Assembly: GCF_003606385.1 (NCBI RefSeq)
Contig: NZ_CP032514.1
Coordinates: 2,914,001-2,978,000 of the forward strand
Reading direction: 5' to 3'
Source of the DNA: Actinomyces lilanjuaniae
GTDB taxonomy: Bacteria > Actinomycetota > Actinomycetes > Actinomycetales > Actinomycetaceae
Length of the DNA stretch: 64,000 nucleotides
Positions 35,126-41,468 of this stretch are shown here, piece after piece (the first letter of the stretch is position 1; every line of letters starts with the position of its first letter). Both the position numbers and the translations under genes were made by a program. Under the pieces are notes generated by a model. It saw only the letters and a program-made list of their open reading frames with translations. It did not search any database and had not been told where the DNA came from.

Positions 35126-35503
35126 ATGGCGACCCCACCCGTCTCAACGAACCTCGTACGCGGGCTCCTGGAACCCTGCCTGCTCTCCCTGCTGGAAGTC
35201 GGCCCGGACTACGGACTGTCCCTCAGCCAGCGCCTGGAGACCAGCGGCATCGGCCCGGTACCCGGCGGCACCCTCTATCCGGCGCTGCTCCGCCTGGACC
35301 GACGCGGCCTAGTCACCACCTCCTGGAGGCCGTCCCCCTCCGGACCTGCTCGCAAGTACTTCGAGCTGACCCCGCTGGGTACCTCCGAGCTCGCAGAACG
35401 TCGCCGGGAGTGGCGGCGGCTGTCGGCAGCACTGGGAGGCGTCATCGAGGGAAACGCACAGGAGACACATACCAGCGCAGACGAAGCCGAGACGAGAGGC
35501 TGA
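35126..35503 (+). CDS. PadR family transcriptional regulator
   Basis: 125 residues: winged helix (LLSLLEVGPDYGLSLSQRLE, GGTLYPALLRLDRRGLVTTSW, ARKYFELTPLGTSEL) plus a short C-terminal helix. First gene of a three-gene operon with an ABC ATPase seven bases on. A palindrome over the -10 suggests it represses its own operon; the inducer is unknown. Confidence 0.92.
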   Translation: MATPPVSTNLVRGLLEPCLLSLLEVGPDYGLSLSQRLETSGIGPVPGGTLYPALLRLDRRGLVTTSWRPSPSGPARKYFELTPLGTSELAERRREWRRLSAALGGVIEGNAQETHTSADEAETRG

Positions 35504-35510
35504 TACAACG

Positions 35511-36407
35511 GTGCCCCTCAACAACCCGTGGCTACGCCCCAAGACCTCCCGGGACCACCCAGCCTCCTCCGACTGGCTGCGCTCCTTCACCACCGAGCTG
35601 ACCTCCCTGGGCGTAACCGCCCAGCAGCGCGAGCAGCTGGAGACGGACACTCGGCTGGAGGTCGAGGCGGCAGACCTGCCACCAGCAGAGATGTACGGAC
35701 CGGCCGCCCTCTACGCCCGCGAGCTTGCTGCCGCCCTGCGCAGCAGCGAGCCTGCCCGGCAGCCGCTTCCCCCTATGCCGCCTCAGGAGGTCGTCCTCCG
35801 CCTGACTGACATCTGCCTACGTCGGGGGCGGCGGGCTGTCCTGGACCAGGTAAGCCTGGAGCTGCGTCGCGGGGAGGTCCTGGCGGTAGTCGGGACCAAC
35901 GGCGCCGGCAAGTCCTCCCTGCTCCAGGTCTGTGCCGGGATCCTCAGGCCAACCAGCGGTCAGGTGGAGCGCTGCCAAAGCTTCGGATACGCTCCCCAGC
36001 GCGACGCCCTGGCTCCGCTGCTTACCGTCGACGAGCACCTCAGCCTGTTCGGGTGCGCGCGCGGGGCCACAGGCTCCCGAGCCCGTGCCACCGGATACCG
36101 GCTCCTCTCCACCCTGGGGTGGAACGCCCGGGGCGCCCAGACTGTGGGCACGCTGTCCGGCGGGACCCAGCAGAAGGTCAGCCTCAGCCTCGCCCAGCTC
36201 GACGCCCCTCACCTCCTTCTTCTTGACGAGCCCTACCAGGGCCTGGACTCCACAGCCTACGAGGACCTGTGGGAGCTGATCAGGACCTGGAGCCGGGCGG
36301 GCACCGCCATCCTTCTGGTCACCCACCTGCTGCGCGACGTCGACCGGGTGGACCAGGTCATCGAGCTGGCCGCCCTTGACGAGAGGACACAGGAGGCACA
36401 CCGATGA
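35511..36407 (+). CDS. ABC transporter ATP-binding protein with N-terminal HAAS-like extension
   Basis: 298 residues from GTG 35511. Residues 1-95 (SSDWLRSFTTELTSLGVTAQQ and following helix) look like the HAAS/DUF1700 domain usually encoded separately beside PadR; here fused. The ATPase has Walker A VVGTNGAGKSSLL, Q-loop YAPQRDAL, signature TLSGGTQQKVSL, Walker B LLLLDEPYQGLD and H-loop LLVTHLL. Overlaps the permease gene by ATGA. Probable drug, lipid or peptide exporter subunit. Confidence 0.9.
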   Translation: MPLNNPWLRPKTSRDHPASSDWLRSFTTELTSLGVTAQQREQLETDTRLEVEAADLPPAEMYGPAALYARELAAALRSSEPARQPLPPMPPQEVVLRLTDICLRRGRRAVLDQVSLELRRGEVLAVVGTNGAGKSSLLQVCAGILRPTSGQVERCQSFGYAPQRDALAPLLTVDEHLSLFGCARGATGSRARATGYRLLSTLGWNARGAQTVGTLSGGTQQKVSLSLAQLDAPHLLLLDEPYQGLDSTAYEDLWELIRTWSRAGTAILLVTHLLRDVDRVDQVIELAALDERTQEAHR

Positions 36408-37129
36408 GAACGCCAGCGACGACTCCCTCCATGGCCGGGCTGGTCGCGCAGGTCACTGTGCACGAGCTGTTTCGCCGCCGGGGAGCGCTCGCACTGACCC
36501 TGCTGCTGCCGCTGACCTTTTACCTGGTCCGCCTGGACACCCACTGGACGGCGCTGCGCCTGCTGGCTATGGGCTTGGGGTGGGCTGTGGCGACCCTGGC
36601 CCTGTTCACCCAGGTCTCCTCACGCCTCATCGACCGGCGGCTGGTGGTGGCCGGGGCGCGTCCACAGTCGCTGTGGGCCGGGTGCCACCTGGCCGTCCTC
36701 CTGCTGGGGTGGGTGGTGGCTGTGGTCTACGCCGCCCTGGTGCTGGGTACTGCGGGCGACGACCTGGAGCACCCAGGCGCCGTGGTCGTCATGCTGGTGC
36801 TGACCGCGACCGCAGCCGTGCCGCTGGGCTCACTGGTGGCGGCGCTAGTCCCCCGGGACCTGGAGGGGGCGATGCTCCTGCTCGCAGTCATGGCTGTCCA
36901 GCTGCTGGTCGACCCTGAGGAGGAGTGGACCCGGATCCTGCCCCTGTGGTCCGCCCGCGAGCTGGCCAGCTACGTCGTGGAGCCCCTGGGAGCGCAGGCA
37001 GGCGACTACCTGGCCAGGGGCGTGGGCCACGCAGTGGCCGTCACCGCCGTCCTGCTGGTGCTCAGCGCAGTGCTGAGCAGGCTGCGGCTGCGCGTAGTGA
37101 CACCGCCACTGCCTGCGGAACCGGGGTAG
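36404..37129 (+). CDS. ABC transporter permease subunit
   Basis: 241 residues with about six hydrophobic helices (for example GALALTLLLPLTFYLV, VVVMLVLTATAAVPLGSLVAAL, VAVTAVLLVLSAVLS). No named family motif is visible; identified by topology and by its ATGA overlap with the ATPase. Completes the PadR-regulated exporter. Confidence 0.85.
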   Translation: MRTPATTPSMAGLVAQVTVHELFRRRGALALTLLLPLTFYLVRLDTHWTALRLLAMGLGWAVATLALFTQVSSRLIDRRLVVAGARPQSLWAGCHLAVLLLGWVVAVVYAALVLGTAGDDLEHPGAVVVMLVLTATAAVPLGSLVAALVPRDLEGAMLLLAVMAVQLLVDPEEEWTRILPLWSARELASYVVEPLGAQAGDYLARGVGHAVAVTAVLLVLSAVLSRLRLRVVTPPLPAEPG

Positions 37130-37428: not shown

Positions 37429-38025
37429 CTAGAGCCTTTCAAGAAGGGCGTCAAGGGCGTCGGTGCTAGCCCAGCCGTTGACGCTGACCGCGCCAGTAGG
37501 GTCAACACGCACCTCAAGCCGGTCCGGGACAGAGTCAAGGCGTGAGACGAGCCTGGCGTATCGTGGAGTCAGAGCGTGGAACCGCTGGTTGACCGACCCG
37601 ACCCAGGGGCGCCGGTGGTCAGGCACCGCGATGTCAAAGGGCCCGTCAACAAGAAGGTCCGTGTTCGCCAGAAGCCCTGCGACGCCGGGAGCGCGGGAGC
37701 ACCTGAGCCTCTCCAGCCAGTAACCGGTAAAGGTCATGACCGTCTGGCCGCGACGCCGCACAAGGTAGGCAAGCCGCGCAAGAGCCTCTGGCTGCTCGAA
37801 GGGCTCGCCCCCAAGGAAGGTAACACCCTCGACATCCTCGGGAATCCGTTGAAGGAGGCTGTCGGGCTCGACGGGTGTACCGCCCCGCTTTCCCCACAGG
37901 TGGGGGTTGAAGCACCCTCTGCACCGAATTGTGCAGCCTTGCACCCACAAGGCGGTACGCAGCCCCGGCCCCTCGGCCCTCGTCCGCTCAAGAAGACGAG
38001 CGAGCAGAATAGGGTCACTCATCAC
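37429..38025 (-). CDS. Radical-SAM 4Fe-4S protein (NrdG-like activase)
   Basis: 198 residues. The CxxxCxxC cluster motif is QGCTIRCRGCFNP near residue 30-42, followed by the SAM-binding VTFLGGEPFEQPEAL, as in class III reductase activases (NrdG) and other glycyl-radical activases. The C-terminal half (VDGPFDIAVPDH, RYARLVSRL, RLEVRVDPTG) is longer than NrdG. Last gene of the Ycf46-like operon, overlapping the HhH gene by GTGA. No NrdD is present in the window, so its target is probably another member of this operon (inference). Confidence 0.85.
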   Translation of the reverse strand: MMSDPILLARLLERTRAEGPGLRTALWVQGCTIRCRGCFNPHLWGKRGGTPVEPDSLLQRIPEDVEGVTFLGGEPFEQPEALARLAYLVRRRGQTVMTFTGYWLERLRCSRAPGVAGLLANTDLLVDGPFDIAVPDHRRPWVGSVNQRFHALTPRYARLVSRLDSVPDRLEVRVDPTGAVSVNGWASTDALDALLERL

Positions 38026-38972
38026 AGGTCAAGCAGGCGACCGCGCTGACCGCCCCGGTCCTTCCCGGACTCACTGCCCCTGCTGGGCTCACCACCCTTC
38101 CTGGCCTCCTCGTTCTTCGAGAACTCGCTGAAGACGACCCGCTCACGCATCCGAAAGACCTGGTGAGGCTGGAGGTCGGCCGCGGACACCAGGTCGTCAA
38201 GGTCGCGAAAGCCCCCGAGCCGCTGGCGGGCTTCAAGGATCCTGTTGATCGCCTCTGCGTCAAGAGAGCCGATGGTCTCCAGCTCCGAGGCCCCAGCGGC
38301 GTTGGCGTCAACTACGCCTGTCGAAATGTCTACCTGCCGTCGGGAGGAGCGGCGTTCATCAGCGCCCGGAACCGAGACCTCCTTGAATGGGTCAGCCGGC
38401 GATTCAGCCGAAGCCTCGTGGTGCCCGTAGTACCGCGACATGTCAATTCCAAGATCAGACGACCCGAGGCTCAGGTCGGCAGGCGACGCCGCAGACCCTC
38501 CACCAGCCCGATAAAGGTCCTGGGAGCGGGACCACTGGGCCTCGGATGGCGTTCTGCCACCCGAGAAGAGGGGATCACCCCACCCTAGGCCAGTGTCACG
38601 CCCTACCAGCCGCGCAAGCGCGTCCTCACGCTTCATGACGGCACGAAGGACTGTACGCCGCATGATGAGTGCGTGGGAGGTCCCCCCGATCCAGCAGATA
38701 AACATGAGCGCCCCGAACATGTTCTCCATGAGGGAGGCATACTCCGGCACGTCGTCATAGCCAGAGGAGAACCACAAGCCAGTGGTAAGAACGAGCCAGA
38801 CGGCCACAACGCACCAGAACCGCCTGGACTGCACCATCATGCCGGCCCAGATCCACCCAAGAAAGGAAAATATCCCCAGACCGGCGGCAACAACAACTAT
38901 CCAGGCGGAGTGCCTGAGCCTCCACCCGAAGGGCTTCTGAGCCAGCAGGGCGTCAATTCTGTCGACCGGCAA
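38022..38972 (-). CDS. Membrane protein with C-terminal helix-hairpin-helix (ComEA-like) domain
   Basis: 316 residues. The N-terminal 110 hold three to four membrane helices (SAWIVVVAAGLGIFSFLGWIW, FWCVVAVWLVLTTGLWF, MFGALMFICWIGG). A polar linker leads to a HhH motif (VDANAAGASELETIGSLDAE to residue ~280: INRILEARQRLGGFRDLDDLV), a DNA- or protein-binding unit found in ComEA. The topology would place the HhH part in the cytoplasm. Overlaps the DUF2997 gene by 20 bases and the radical-SAM gene by the stop/start. Role unknown. Confidence 0.75.
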   Translation of the reverse strand: MPVDRIDALLAQKPFGWRLRHSAWIVVVAAGLGIFSFLGWIWAGMMVQSRRFWCVVAVWLVLTTGLWFSSGYDDVPEYASLMENMFGALMFICWIGGTSHALIMRRTVLRAVMKREDALARLVGRDTGLGWGDPLFSGGRTPSEAQWSRSQDLYRAGGGSAASPADLSLGSSDLGIDMSRYYGHHEASAESPADPFKEVSVPGADERRSSRRQVDISTGVVDANAAGASELETIGSLDAEAINRILEARQRLGGFRDLDDLVSAADLQPHQVFRMRERVVFSEFSKNEEARKGGEPSRGSESGKDRGGQRGRLLDL

Positions 38973-39180
38973 CAGTGGTCTCCTCAGTAGTATCCTGCTG
39001 GCTCACGCCCTGGGCCGCGTAGTAGTCAGCCGTAAACGCGCTCTCTGTCGCGACCGCCTCAAGGATATCCTCAAGAACGCCGACCTGCGGAAGACAGGAA
39101 GAGCCGACGAAGCCGATCGTCTCGGCATCCACCGTGCCGTCAGGCCCCACTGAGACCTTGAGGTACCTCCGCGCACTCAT
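38953..39180 (-). CDS. DUF2997 small protein
   Basis: 75 residues. A beta-rich start (RYLKVSVGPDGTVDAETIGFVGSSCL) with the conserved GSSC and a following helix matches DUF2997, a tiny family that almost always travels with DUF1257 and a Ycf46-type ATPase. ATGA overlap with the preceding gene. Function unknown; the single conserved cysteine is a candidate ligand or modification site (inference). Confidence 0.8.
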   Translation of the reverse strand: MSARRYLKVSVGPDGTVDAETIGFVGSSCLPQVGVLEDILEAVATESAFTADYYAAQGVSQQDTTEETTVAGRQN

Positions 39181-39632
39181 CTCGCCCCTACCTCCATCAT
39201 CAAGGTGACAACACGGTCGTCATCAACAGTCTCGGACTCGATACGCATACCAGCGGCAGGAGCACGGTCCCGCAGTCGCTGGACCACGGCCTGCTGCACC
39301 CTGAGACCATAGGCGCGGTCAAGATCCTCAACAAAATTGCGCGCAAGATCCGGGGAGTCCGGGTCAGCAAAGTGGATCGTCCACAGCCCGTCGCTGTCAC
39401 GGGTCAGGACAAGGGGACCAACGGAGGTCGCACCGGCAAGCCGCCCCTCCTCAGTACGCTGCACTGACACACCCAGGTCATGCAGGGCGTCAACAAGCAG
39501 CCCCTCGTCACGCATACGTGACCTCACACCGACCGTCCGCCTCGGGTGCGACGGGGTGCTGCCCTCCTGCCACGCCTGCCCCACGGTCACAGCGGCCAGG
39601 GCCAGGGGGACCAATGTGATGCTAAGACTCAT
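39177..39632 (-). CDS. DUF1257-like (Ycf35-related) protein
   Basis: 151 residues. The N-terminus (MSLSITLVPLALAAVTVGQAW) is hydrophobic and unusual for DUF1257; the rest (MRDEGLLVDALHDLGV, FVEDLDRAYGLRVQQAVVQRLRD, DDRVVTLMMEVGA) follows the Ycf35 pattern of a helix and beta-hairpin around a tyrosine-containing ...AYGLR segment. Start at ATG 39632, 26 bases after the AAA stop; the longer open frame runs inside the AAA gene. Assignment rests on pattern and on neighbours. Confidence 0.7.
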   Translation of the reverse strand: MSLSITLVPLALAAVTVGQAWQEGSTPSHPRRTVGVRSRMRDEGLLVDALHDLGVSVQRTEEGRLAGATSVGPLVLTRDSDGLWTIHFADPDSPDLARNFVEDLDRAYGLRVQQAVVQRLRDRAPAAGMRIESETVDDDRVVTLMMEVGAR

Positions 39633-39657
39633 CCGCTCATCCTTCCGCTCAGACTGG

Positions 39658-41361
39658 TCAGAACTCGACACGGCGGCCAGCTGCGGCAATATCCCCGGCA
39701 AGGCCTCCAGGCCCTCCTGGCCCCGACCGCGCCGTAGCCGACCACGTACCAGCCGACCCCCCGGGAAAGGCCCCAGGAGGAGACGCAGGCAGGGACCCGG
39801 AGAGGGAGGACGGCCTCGCGCTCGCAGCCACCGCGCGCTCACTCGCCCACGCCCGGACAGCGCTCAGCTGCTCCGCCTGCGTCACGCTCAGAGGAACAGA
39901 CCTGTTCACCGCGCTCACCAGGTCGTCTCCCGTCAGGGCACGACGGCTCGCGAAGGCGTCGAACAGGGCATCCAGGACCGCCTGCTCAATCTCTGCTCCC
40001 GAGAATCCCTCAGAGGTCGCCACCAGGTTCGCAAGCAAGACCTTGTCAAGCACGAAGTCGCTGTGCCGCTCGGCAGCCTGGACGTGCTTGGCAACATGGA
40101 GCCTCCAGATCTGCTCACGTTCCTCCTCGTTAGGCAGGTCCACGAAGAAGATCTCGTCAAACCGCCCCTTGCGCAGGAGCTCTGGAGGCAGGTCACGGAC
40201 ATTGTTGGACGTCGCGATGACGAAGACCGGGGCCGTCTTCTCCTGCATCCACGTGAGGAAGGCACCGAAGACGCGGGAGGAGGTTCCGGAGTCCCCGCTC
40301 CCGCCGACCCCGGAGAACCCCTTCTCTATCTCGTCCACCCACAGCACGGCGGGAGAAGCCGCCTCAGCAGAACGAATTGCCGAGCGCAGGTTCGACTCGC
40401 TGGAGCCGACAAGCCCCGAGAACATCTTGCCGACGTCGAGCCGCAGCAGAGGGAGGCACCACGCCGACGCCACCGCCTTGGCTGTCAACGACTTTCCACA
40501 GCCAGGAACCCCGGTAATCAAGACACCACGGGGGGCAGGAACGCCGTAGTAGCGCGCTTCCGCCAGCCACGACCCGTCCCTGCGGCTCAGCCATCTTTTA
40601 AGGTTGTCAAGGCCGCCCACGCCGTCAAGATCGATATCGGTGTCGATGTAGTCAAGCAGACCGCTCTTGCGCACCGCCTGCTTCTTCTCCTGAAGAACGG
40701 TCTCCACGTCACTGGCGTCAAGTCGGCCGTCCTCAGCCATCGCCAGGGCGAGAGCCCCTTCCGCCTCCGTCTCCGTGAGCCCGACAGCCGCTCTCACCAG
40801 GCGGTCCTTGTCCGTCTCCGCCAGGTCGATCTCGAGACGTCGGTTCCCGGCGTTGTCCATGATGAGCTGGTCAAGAATACTACGGATTTCAACCTCGTCC
40901 GGAAGCGGGAAGTCGAGAAGGTGAATGTCTTTCTCCAGCTCGGCCGGAATCCGCCGTATCGGAGCGAGGATGATAATCGTGCGCCGCAGCTCCCCGCGCT
41001 GGAACTCAGCCGCGGCCTCCCTCAGCTTTCGCACAACTCCTGCATCCGCCGGGCGAGTCCCGTCCCCCAGGTGCGCGTGCAGGTCAAGGAACACAAAGGT
41101 TGCAGACTCCCGGGTCTCCATTGCCGCATCAAGCGCCCTGCTGGGATCAGTCGTTCCAGGTGCCACCTTTCCTTCCGGGCCAACAAGACCTGCGGTACAG
41201 CTCCAGGTGTGTACCGGGCGCGAGGACGCCAGCGCCGGCCCGGCCTCCAGCGTCTCCCGGATTGCGGCAAGCGCCCGCCTCTCCTCAAAGGTCTCGACAT
41301 AGATAATCGGGAACCGGGCTTTTGCCAGGACAGAAAGGGACGCCTCAAAGGATGCGGCCAC
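39658..41361 (-). CDS. Ycf46-like AAA+ ATPase
   Basis: 567 residues. An N-terminal degenerate RecA-like domain (IIYVETFEERRALAAI; TFVFLDLHAHLGDG) without a P-loop, then an AAA+ module: Walker A GVPGCGKSLTAK at about 284-295, Walker B VLWVDEIE near 340, sensor VIATSNN, arginine finger in LLRKGRFDEIF. This two-part layout is that of plastid/cyanobacterial Ycf46. The tail is Pro/Gly/Ala-rich and low complexity. GTG start at 41361. First gene of a five-gene operon with DUF1257, DUF2997, HhH and radical-SAM proteins. Confidence 0.88.
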   Translation of the reverse strand: MAASFEASLSVLAKARFPIIYVETFEERRALAAIRETLEAGPALASSRPVHTWSCTAGLVGPEGKVAPGTTDPSRALDAAMETRESATFVFLDLHAHLGDGTRPADAGVVRKLREAAAEFQRGELRRTIIILAPIRRIPAELEKDIHLLDFPLPDEVEIRSILDQLIMDNAGNRRLEIDLAETDKDRLVRAAVGLTETEAEGALALAMAEDGRLDASDVETVLQEKKQAVRKSGLLDYIDTDIDLDGVGGLDNLKRWLSRRDGSWLAEARYYGVPAPRGVLITGVPGCGKSLTAKAVASAWCLPLLRLDVGKMFSGLVGSSESNLRSAIRSAEAASPAVLWVDEIEKGFSGVGGSGDSGTSSRVFGAFLTWMQEKTAPVFVIATSNNVRDLPPELLRKGRFDEIFFVDLPNEEEREQIWRLHVAKHVQAAERHSDFVLDKVLLANLVATSEGFSGAEIEQAVLDALFDAFASRRALTGDDLVSAVNRSVPLSVTQAEQLSAVRAWASERAVAASARPSSLSGSLPASPPGAFPGGSAGTWSATARSGPGGPGGLAGDIAAAGRRVEF

Positions 41362-41439: not shown

Positions 41440-41468
41440 ACTTTACTCTCACGCAGTCCCCGTGTCAG
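41440..41468 (-). promoter_or_regulatory. Promoter of the Ycf46-like operon
   Basis: Minus strand CTGACA (plus 41463-41468), 17-base spacer, TAAAGT (plus 41440-41445), about 80 bases before the GTG. A GC-rich CCCCGGGAGC/GCTCCCCGGG-type hairpin lies in the leader (about 41397-41420). Confidence 0.6.

Follow-up and report, generated by a model that had tools for sequence, protein, structure and literature searches.

In the genome of Actinomyces lilanjuaniae (NZ_CP032514.1, positions 2,914,001 to 2,978,000; these 64,000 nucleotides are the whole of the DNA analysed and are called the window below), five minus-strand open reading frames (ORFs) form a cassette encoding, in this order, a Ycf46-type AAA ATPase, a DUF1257-like protein, a DUF2997 protein, a membrane-anchored helix-hairpin-helix (HhH) protein and a radical S-adenosylmethionine (SAM) enzyme. 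Three neighbouring pairs overlap, by 4, 20 and 4 bases, and the gap between the AAA and DUF1257-like genes is 25 bases. An earlier note, made from the letters of the sequence, had described five overlapping or nearly abutting genes as a candidate uncharacterised system, and all five ORFs lie on the minus strand where it had placed them.

Using the ATPase, we scanned bacterial and archaeal species genomes and combined the best 80 of 571 confirmed stretches (47-61% identity) with three loci from the window's genus, the window included. The resulting 83 loci, of which at least L012 and L015 share one assembly, come from Actinomycetota, Bacillota, Gastranaerophilales and metagenome-derived bacteria. 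Iterated profiles detected the DUF1257-like protein in 79 of them, DUF2997 in 77, the HhH protein in 79 and the radical SAM enzyme in 78. Because all five genes are present in 71 of the 83 loci, the operon is a real unit, far from chance, and the conserved neighbourhood on which the earlier proposal depended does recur in other genomes. Among the 12 incomplete loci, eight have a contig end near the AAA gene (L015, L020, L035, L040, L065, L066, L073, L082); the remainder are L041, L055, L061 and L029, the last lying mid-contig with the AAA gene alone. A strong radical SAM match was found elsewhere in the genomes of L041, L055 and L073 and was not found in those of L061 (best 3.6e-29) or L029 (no match). 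The commonest gene orders were HhH, radical SAM, AAA, DUF1257-like, DUF2997 (28 loci), the order of the window (17) and AAA, DUF2997, radical SAM, DUF1257-like, HhH (8), beside nine other patterns; no recurrent sixth gene was seen by eye in this gene-order census. Distances in the AAA and radical SAM trees correlate at 0.92 over 68 loci, in part through shared ancestry. The cassette is a rare, mobile unit across several bacterial phyla: DUF2997 was found in 3 of 37 genomes from the window's genus and in no further genome of the order (22 searched), the radical SAM enzyme at 1e-45 in one of 296 sampled Actinomycetota genomes (the window's own), and the ATPase at 1e-130 in five of these 296, the other four far weaker than the window's. 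Five-gene cassettes with matches to all five profiles lie on conjugative plasmids of Paenarthrobacter and Rhodococcus.

The strongest new fact, absent from the earlier note, is a C-terminal tail shared by the ATPase and the HhH protein, which are otherwise unrelated and end alike in alignments (GGRTIDF, GRVVDF and similar). The strict form, R-x-[VIL]-[DE]-[FYLIVW]-COOH, closes 80 of 83 ATPases and 95 of 102 HhH ORFs, whereas 3 of the 1803 remaining ORFs of 150 amino acids or more in these loci have it; a looser R-x-[VILM]-x-hydrophobic end occurs in 10 of these 1803. Within the cassette, the strict tail was seen in one of 77 DUF2997 proteins (L078, ending QIRRIDF), in none of 81 DUF1257-like ORFs and in none of 79 radical SAM proteins. 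The tail played no part in finding the tailed proteins, since the profile matches end at least 15 residues (80 AAA) or at least 8 residues (95 HhH) short of the C-terminus. ATPases without the strict tail are those of L008, L032 and L066, and the seven HhH exceptions comprise L008 and L012 (Met for V/I/L), L083 (one extra residue), L015 and L081 (truncated where the locus stops) and ORFs of L023 and L030. Several loci carry multiple HhH copies, each tailed, with seven ORFs in L062. Glycine precedes the tail arginine in all 80 tailed AAA proteins and in 61 of the 95 tailed HhH ORFs; this last count weakens the idea that the tail glycine generally carries a glycyl radical.

Features of the cassette in the window (all on the minus strand; aa, amino acids).
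Feature	Position in the window	Remarks
Ycf46-type AAA ATPase, 567 aa	39658..41361 (-)	N-terminal half without Walker A, and active-type AAA domain
DUF1257/Ycf35-like protein, 151 aa	39177..39632 (-)	Hydrophobic N-terminus; begins Met-Ser
DUF2997 protein, 75 aa	38953..39180 (-)	Gly26 and Cys29 invariant
Membrane-anchored HhH protein, 316 aa	38022..38972 (-)	HHH_3 at residues 220-278
NrdG-like radical SAM enzyme, 198 aa	37429..38025 (-)	
Walker A cysteine of the AAA protein	40498..40500 (-)	Cys288, GVPGCGKS
C-terminal tail of the AAA protein	39661..39678 (-)	GRRVEF-COOH
C-terminal tail of the HhH protein	38025..38042 (-)	GRLLDL-COOH
CxxxCxxC cluster motif of the radical SAM enzyme	37912..37935 (-)	Cys31, Cys35, Cys38
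Possible sigma-70-type promoter	41440..41468 (-)	Consensus scan; upstream of the AAA gene

The promoter that the earlier note had placed ahead of the operon was recovered as a single sigma-70-like site with 9 of 12 consensus matches (mean of 0.2 sites in shuffles) and stays at the level of a possible promoter. Just past the cassette lie a PadR regulator and then the ATPase and permease of an ABC transporter (window 35126-37129), and in two congeners the cassette is found among the same PadR/ABC genes in rearranged order.

The AAA protein has a single Pfam match (AAA, 2.7e-29, residues 280-408). The cassette AAA profile matches 31 cyanobacterial Ycf46-like proteins at 7.1e-159 to 2.2e-193, which makes the two homologous over their full length and bears out the earlier Ycf46-type call. 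In the AAA tree, 21 cassette proteins form a clade of their own (100/99) and do not fall inside the cyanobacterial Ycf46 clades; the cyanobacterial proteins occupy several other clades, whose relations the tree does not resolve. The P-loop reads GCGKS, with the equivalent of Cys288, in all 83 cassette AAA proteins. PMC7496141 gives Slr0374 as Ycf46, and in Table 1 of PMC13214033 the Slr0374 peptide 260-271 with Cys269 is listed as 91.6% reduced in light and 78.3% in the dark. In all 11 Ycf35-linked cyanobacterial homologues, trypsin would release a peptide that stops at the P-loop lysine, the 12-mer GMLILGVPGCGK; its residue 10 is Cys, and the Slr0374 peptide agrees with it in length (12) and Cys position (10). 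Because such a 12-mer fits, the published redox site Cys269, as mapped by peptide length and Cys position, very probably corresponds to the invariant P-loop cysteine of the cassette ATPases; two cyanobacterial GVQGCGKS proteins would fit the peptide equally.

The DUF1257-like protein has no direct Pfam match, which leaves it below the PF06868 cut-off. The DUF1257 model was reached at E up to 0.1 by 6 of its 34 homologues (best 1.1e-4), and its own profile matches the cyanobacterial gene adjoining Ycf46 in five loci (2.8e-5 to 5.2e-5); two of these five genes were scanned, and both are DUF1257 (1.3e-23 and 3.4e-24). The hhalign comparison with a 13-row DUF1257 alignment gave 95.8% (8.3e-9, over 105 columns). 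Because of this score and the reach of the profile to Ycf46-adjoining DUF1257 genes, the protein is, by profile comparison, a remote member of the DUF1257/Ycf35 superfamily, and the earlier assignment is upheld indirectly. An N-terminal hydrophobic stretch is present in 70 of 81 ORFs, lacking in 4 and not assessable in 7. The AlphaFold2 model (predicted local distance difference test, pLDDT, 86) has one long helix (94-123) and seven strands; a sequence search of solved structures gave three weak matches (best 0.0099), and a fold search gave nothing convincing (best E 6.5e-3, query-normalised TM at most 0.41 among the 50 matches listed). Tyr108, Gln113 and Glu134 are conserved residues of the protein. 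The domain also occurs doubled in Bacillus-type proteins of 240-250 amino acids (L024-L026, L034, L067, L076, L079) and two or more times in proteins of 410-440 amino acids (L031, L041-L045, L047, L048, L053, L061, L078).

The identity of the DUF2997 protein is direct (PF11211, 2.7e-11, 43.6 bits against a cut-off of 24.1), and Gly26 and Cys29 are invariant in 36-row and 55-row alignments, so that the conserved cysteine noticed earlier is confirmed and both small-protein identities hold by profile. Its model (pLDDT 77) shows a beta hairpin followed by a helix (26-40), with Cys29 near the helix start; no solved relative was found by sequence, and the best fold-search match had an E of 0.63. The two proteins are fused in L003, by profile match, and probably also in L280, where the DUF2997 half is matched by Pfam (2.7e-9) and the DUF1257 half was recognised by eye. 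Because natural fusions exist, they support a predicted contact between both proteins.

The HhH protein matches HHH_3 at its cut-off (4.5e-6, 27.1 bits against 27), with a strong match in one scanned relative (3.6e-17), and at least one transmembrane segment is predicted in 84 of 101 homologous ORFs; the description as a membrane-anchored HhH protein can stand. The possible DNA link that had been attached to it is weak. The comE model gave 14.7 bits against a cut-off of 152.35 (E 0.022), the hairpin is degenerate, and the window protein has no G-x-G (by eye), nor do 38 of the 45 ORFs that could be parsed, with 57 more unparsable.

The radical SAM enzyme matches Fer4_12 (1.8e-32) and Radical_SAM (2.8e-7, 31.3 bits against 29.5), and CxxxCxxC and the SAM-binding GGEP are invariant in a 35-row alignment, which places it in the superfamily. 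The NrdG model TIGR02491 matches at 7.3e-28, yet with 97.4 bits it remains below the cut-off of 126.1 and spans only residues 15-151 of 198, so that the earlier NrdG-like label holds as a likeness. Its two PDB matches are PFL activases, 8fo0 (6.3e-18) and 3c8f (9e-18). As noted before, the cassette locus has no gene for a glycyl-radical enzyme; furthermore, NRDD/Gly_radical matches were absent from 9 of 23 hand-picked carrier genomes, where incomplete assemblies may conceal some. The window's own genome has NrdD (441204-442931) followed by a radical SAM match at 443118 and a Gly_radical protein (1407946-1408484) by another at 1408761, both within 300 bases. Judged from these searches, several carriers have no classical glycyl-radical enzyme for the cassette enzyme to serve, and it is not a spare activase. 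The partner that profiles place most constantly with it is DUF2997 (in the main cassette, in Paenibacillus variants, in L280 and in the viral-contig loci L186 and L193/L194), which is the best candidate substrate; this assignment is the weakest point of our interpretation. The earlier suggestion of a small protein as substrate loses ground through cyanobacteria, where the DUF2997 cysteine is also present in 30 of 30 loci that showed no radical SAM gene in the flanking 1.5 kb or so.

Algal plastids retain Ycf46 and Ycf35, for which to our knowledge no role has been settled. In the cyanobacterial phylum the ATPase was detected at 1e-60 in 93 of 146 genomes, and we read 31 Ycf46 copies outside the cassette type (13 taken by score, 18 hand-picked, hosts assumed to be photosynthetic). 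The 11 beside Ycf35 all have PGCGKS and end in QR[ML]E[FS] or IRQEW. None of the 20 not beside Ycf35 has that end, and their P-loops have Ser/Thr for Cys in 18 cases and read GVQGCGKS in two. No radical SAM, HhH or DUF2997 match was found in the 31 stretches (3-4.5 kb each). The cyanobacterial DUF2997 genes next to Ycf35 were read in 30 loci (L149-L178), the best of 87 genomes with a match; radical SAM or HhH matches were absent within about 1.5 kb on each side. Read by eye, the C-terminal residue of these proteins is Trp in 29 of 30 and is preceded by Asp/Glu in 23 of 30. The cyanobacterial Ycf46-Ycf35 pair, and by family name the plastid genes too, looks like the core of the module without radical SAM and HhH genes. 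In red-algal plastids, loss of ycf35 and ycf46 has been linked to freshwater habitat, according to PMC5940233.

Variants of the cassette change its partners. On a Paenibacillus plasmid, the order is AAA, DUF1257, DUF2997, radical SAM; the ATPase is tailless, and two new proteins, each with two transmembrane segments, end in SRVIHF and KRVIRL, respectively. A follow-up over 246 genomes of a Paenibacillus's order gave 22 with radical SAM matches at 1e-20, many of them probably ordinary activases, and among the eight read, the ATPase of variants ends in RKISF or RRLFF, and DUF2997 in RNVEL in two loci. In L280, a protein of 334 amino acids with three transmembrane segments and no HhH match ends in GQRVLDF, beside an ATPase ending in GRNIDF. 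The tail therefore survives a change of partners, in strict or looser form, on other membrane proteins, on the ATPase or on DUF2997. In the IMG/VR contigs L186 (2008-3337) and L193 (4283-5594), a long protein precedes DUF2997, a DUF1257-like protein (4.6e-9 and 5.4e-8, respectively) and a radical SAM enzyme; L190 (3961-10442) has a weak DUF1257-like match (0.0019), a DUF2997-like protein without the Cys (by eye), a radical SAM enzyme and an AAA protein. On a Kovacikia plasmid the radical SAM profile matched, and the other four cassette profiles and Ycf35 did not. Ycf46-like AAA ATPases were also seen in phages of Mycobacterium, Rhizobium, Pseudomonas and others (54 records), e.g. Catdawg (L265, 2898-4676) and vB_RleS_L338C (L266, 3456-5129); in these two records, none of the neighbours is annotated as radical SAM or DUF2997, many being labelled 'hypothetical'.

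Proteobacterial plasmids carry operons of a PIN protein, a protein of about 370 amino acids, an AAA ATPase and a radical SAM enzyme (L263 1-5567, L267 1-5534, L268 69-5558, L272 537-6537), with an AAA-domain gene upstream in two of the four. PIN_4 was found in two scanned proteins, and the radical SAM enzymes are 41-47% identical to that of the cassette. The presence of DUF2997 in these operons is weakly founded: one sub-threshold Pfam match (L267, E 0.05) and a G-x-x-C pattern seen by eye in all four stand beside a non-significant profile comparison of the 367-aa protein (probability 0.2%) and nothing at E 1 with the cassette profile. The PIN operon seems to be a system of its own around a related radical SAM enzyme. 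A tail tied solely to the radical SAM gene was rejected, since the enzyme occurs in PIN variants that lack a tail, and the cyanobacterial Ycf46 proteins next to Ycf35 have a tail-like end with no radical SAM match in the stretches read around them.

We propose, at a probability of about 0.35 and thus tentatively, that the cassette encodes a membrane-tethered, redox-responsive AAA+ remodelling machine. DUF1257 and DUF2997 would form an adaptor with a pocket that recognises R-x-phi-D/E-phi-COOH tails. The ATPase ring and the membrane protein, with its HhH or other cytosolic domain, would dock by their tails on the same adaptor, and this docking would either keep the ring at the membrane or bring the membrane protein within its reach. 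Oxidation of the invariant P-loop cysteine may switch the ATPase off, and the radical SAM enzyme would mature the adaptor, most likely at DUF2997, or the tails, the weakest step of the scheme. Comparison shows the architecture; docking, redox gating and the radical SAM target we infer from it. A quite unlikely elaboration is that the orphan NrdG-like enzyme modifies adaptor or tails, perhaps by no more than a short-lived glycyl or thiyl radical in the invariant Gly-x-x-Cys of DUF2997, that this licenses the Ycf46-type ring on tailed membrane proteins, and that the plastid genes ycf46 and ycf35 descend from the core of this module.

Several observations weigh against the proposed machine. For the DUF1257 model, neither a closely related solved structure nor a binding pocket was found, and the DUF1257-like half of L280 was missed by three DUF1257-type profiles. 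In L274, none of four labelled proteins has a tail, and the PIN operons combine radical SAM and ATPase with no tails and no DUF1257/DUF2997 profile matches. The AAA protein of L029 is tailed, with the other four genes missing from its 17.6-kb locus and no radical SAM match in the genome bin. The 11 Ycf35-linked Ycf46 proteins form a single clade (100/100), so the correlation of Ycf35, P-loop and tail counts as one evolutionary event.

The tail could instead be the recognition and modification site of the radical SAM enzyme, with the AAA and membrane proteins both substrates and the modification controlling the ATPase or marking the membrane protein. Most loci have both the strict tail and radical SAM, the radical SAM variants have new tailed proteins, the glycine before the arginine is universal in tailed AAA proteins, and no glycyl-radical enzyme was detected as another substrate in the nine genomes mentioned. 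Against this stand the tail-like ends of cyanobacterial Ycf46 and DUF2997 with no radical SAM match within a few kb, the incomplete conservation of that glycine in HhH ORFs and the tailless PIN variants, and we regard it as possible but rather unlikely. We are similarly doubtful about an accessory stress or defence (conflict) system that arms a variable effector, here the membrane HhH protein and in the proteobacterial plasmid form a PIN nuclease. Such a role would suit the patchy distribution (DUF2997 in 3 of 37 genus genomes, radical SAM in 1 of 296 in the phylum), the full cassettes on two conjugative plasmids and the joining of PIN_4, ATPase and radical SAM in one operon; however, no cassette protein had a convincing PADLOC match, no recurrent defence neighbours were seen by eye in the gene-order census, which was made without statistics, and many of the best 80 loci come from Gastranaerophilales, fitting a resident function there.

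A role of the HhH protein as a ComEA-like receptor at the membrane or processing factor for DNA, with the machine working in DNA uptake or on DNA close to the membrane, seems highly unlikely: the HHH_3 matches and the weak ComEA match speak for it, whereas the G-x-G is mostly lost and variants without HhH carry other tailed membrane proteins. Extremely improbable is a spare activase of anaerobic ribonucleotide reductase or another glycyl-radical enzyme, by which the cassette would help anaerobic metabolism; the sub-threshold NrdG likeness is what recommends it, and it is largely refuted by the nine carriers with no NRDD/Gly_radical matches, while both candidate targets in the window's genome have a radical SAM match close by.

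We found no published system of this composition, nor Ycf46 together with a radical SAM enzyme, although subscription papers or other naming could hold one; the novelty is the system, each protein family being already named. It places Ycf46 and Ycf35 in a wider, tractable bacterial cassette, with the five-residue tail and the P-loop cysteine as testable handles. A link between an orphan radical SAM enzyme and an AAA+ machine, in organisms where no glycyl-radical enzyme is detected, would as far as we know be a new use of radical chemistry.

Among known systems, PADLOC gave the cassette proteins generic matches to parts of ATPases, the best to IetA (1.8e-23), and a weak one to viperin, which assign them to none of its families. 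The PIN operons resemble the cassette in a related radical SAM enzyme, an AAA ATPase and perhaps, weakly, a G-x-x-C DUF2997-like C-terminal domain, but differ in an AAA_2/ClpB-like ATPase (L263), the PIN nuclease and the lack of DUF1257, DUF2997 and tails. With NrdG and the activases, the cassette enzyme shares CxxxCxxC, GGEP, the NrdG motif GSxNQ and the TIGR02491 match, whereas its partial, sub-threshold coverage and missing glycyl-radical partner set it apart. Oxidation of the P-loop cysteine in the D2 domain of p97 is known, and Cdc48/p97 with its adaptors is alike in having two AAA-like halves, a P-loop cysteine and, as a principle, C-terminal docking peptides; the cassette AAA protein differs in its adaptors, in an N-terminal half without Walker A and in a CDC48 score of 105.9 against a cut-off of 802.65. 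In cyanobacteria, cluster g consists of DUF2997, ycf35 and fed7, with a ferredoxin in place of radical SAM and HhH, according to PMC4284462. While the cyanobacterial relatives have no nearby radical SAM or HhH match, a tail of the form R-x-E-F and a DUF2997 ending in W, the cyanobacterial/plastid Ycf46-Ycf35 system shares with the cassette a homologous ATPase, DUF1257 and DUF2997, and the Ycf35-linked Ycf46 proteins share the P-loop cysteine and an acidic-aromatic C-terminus as well.

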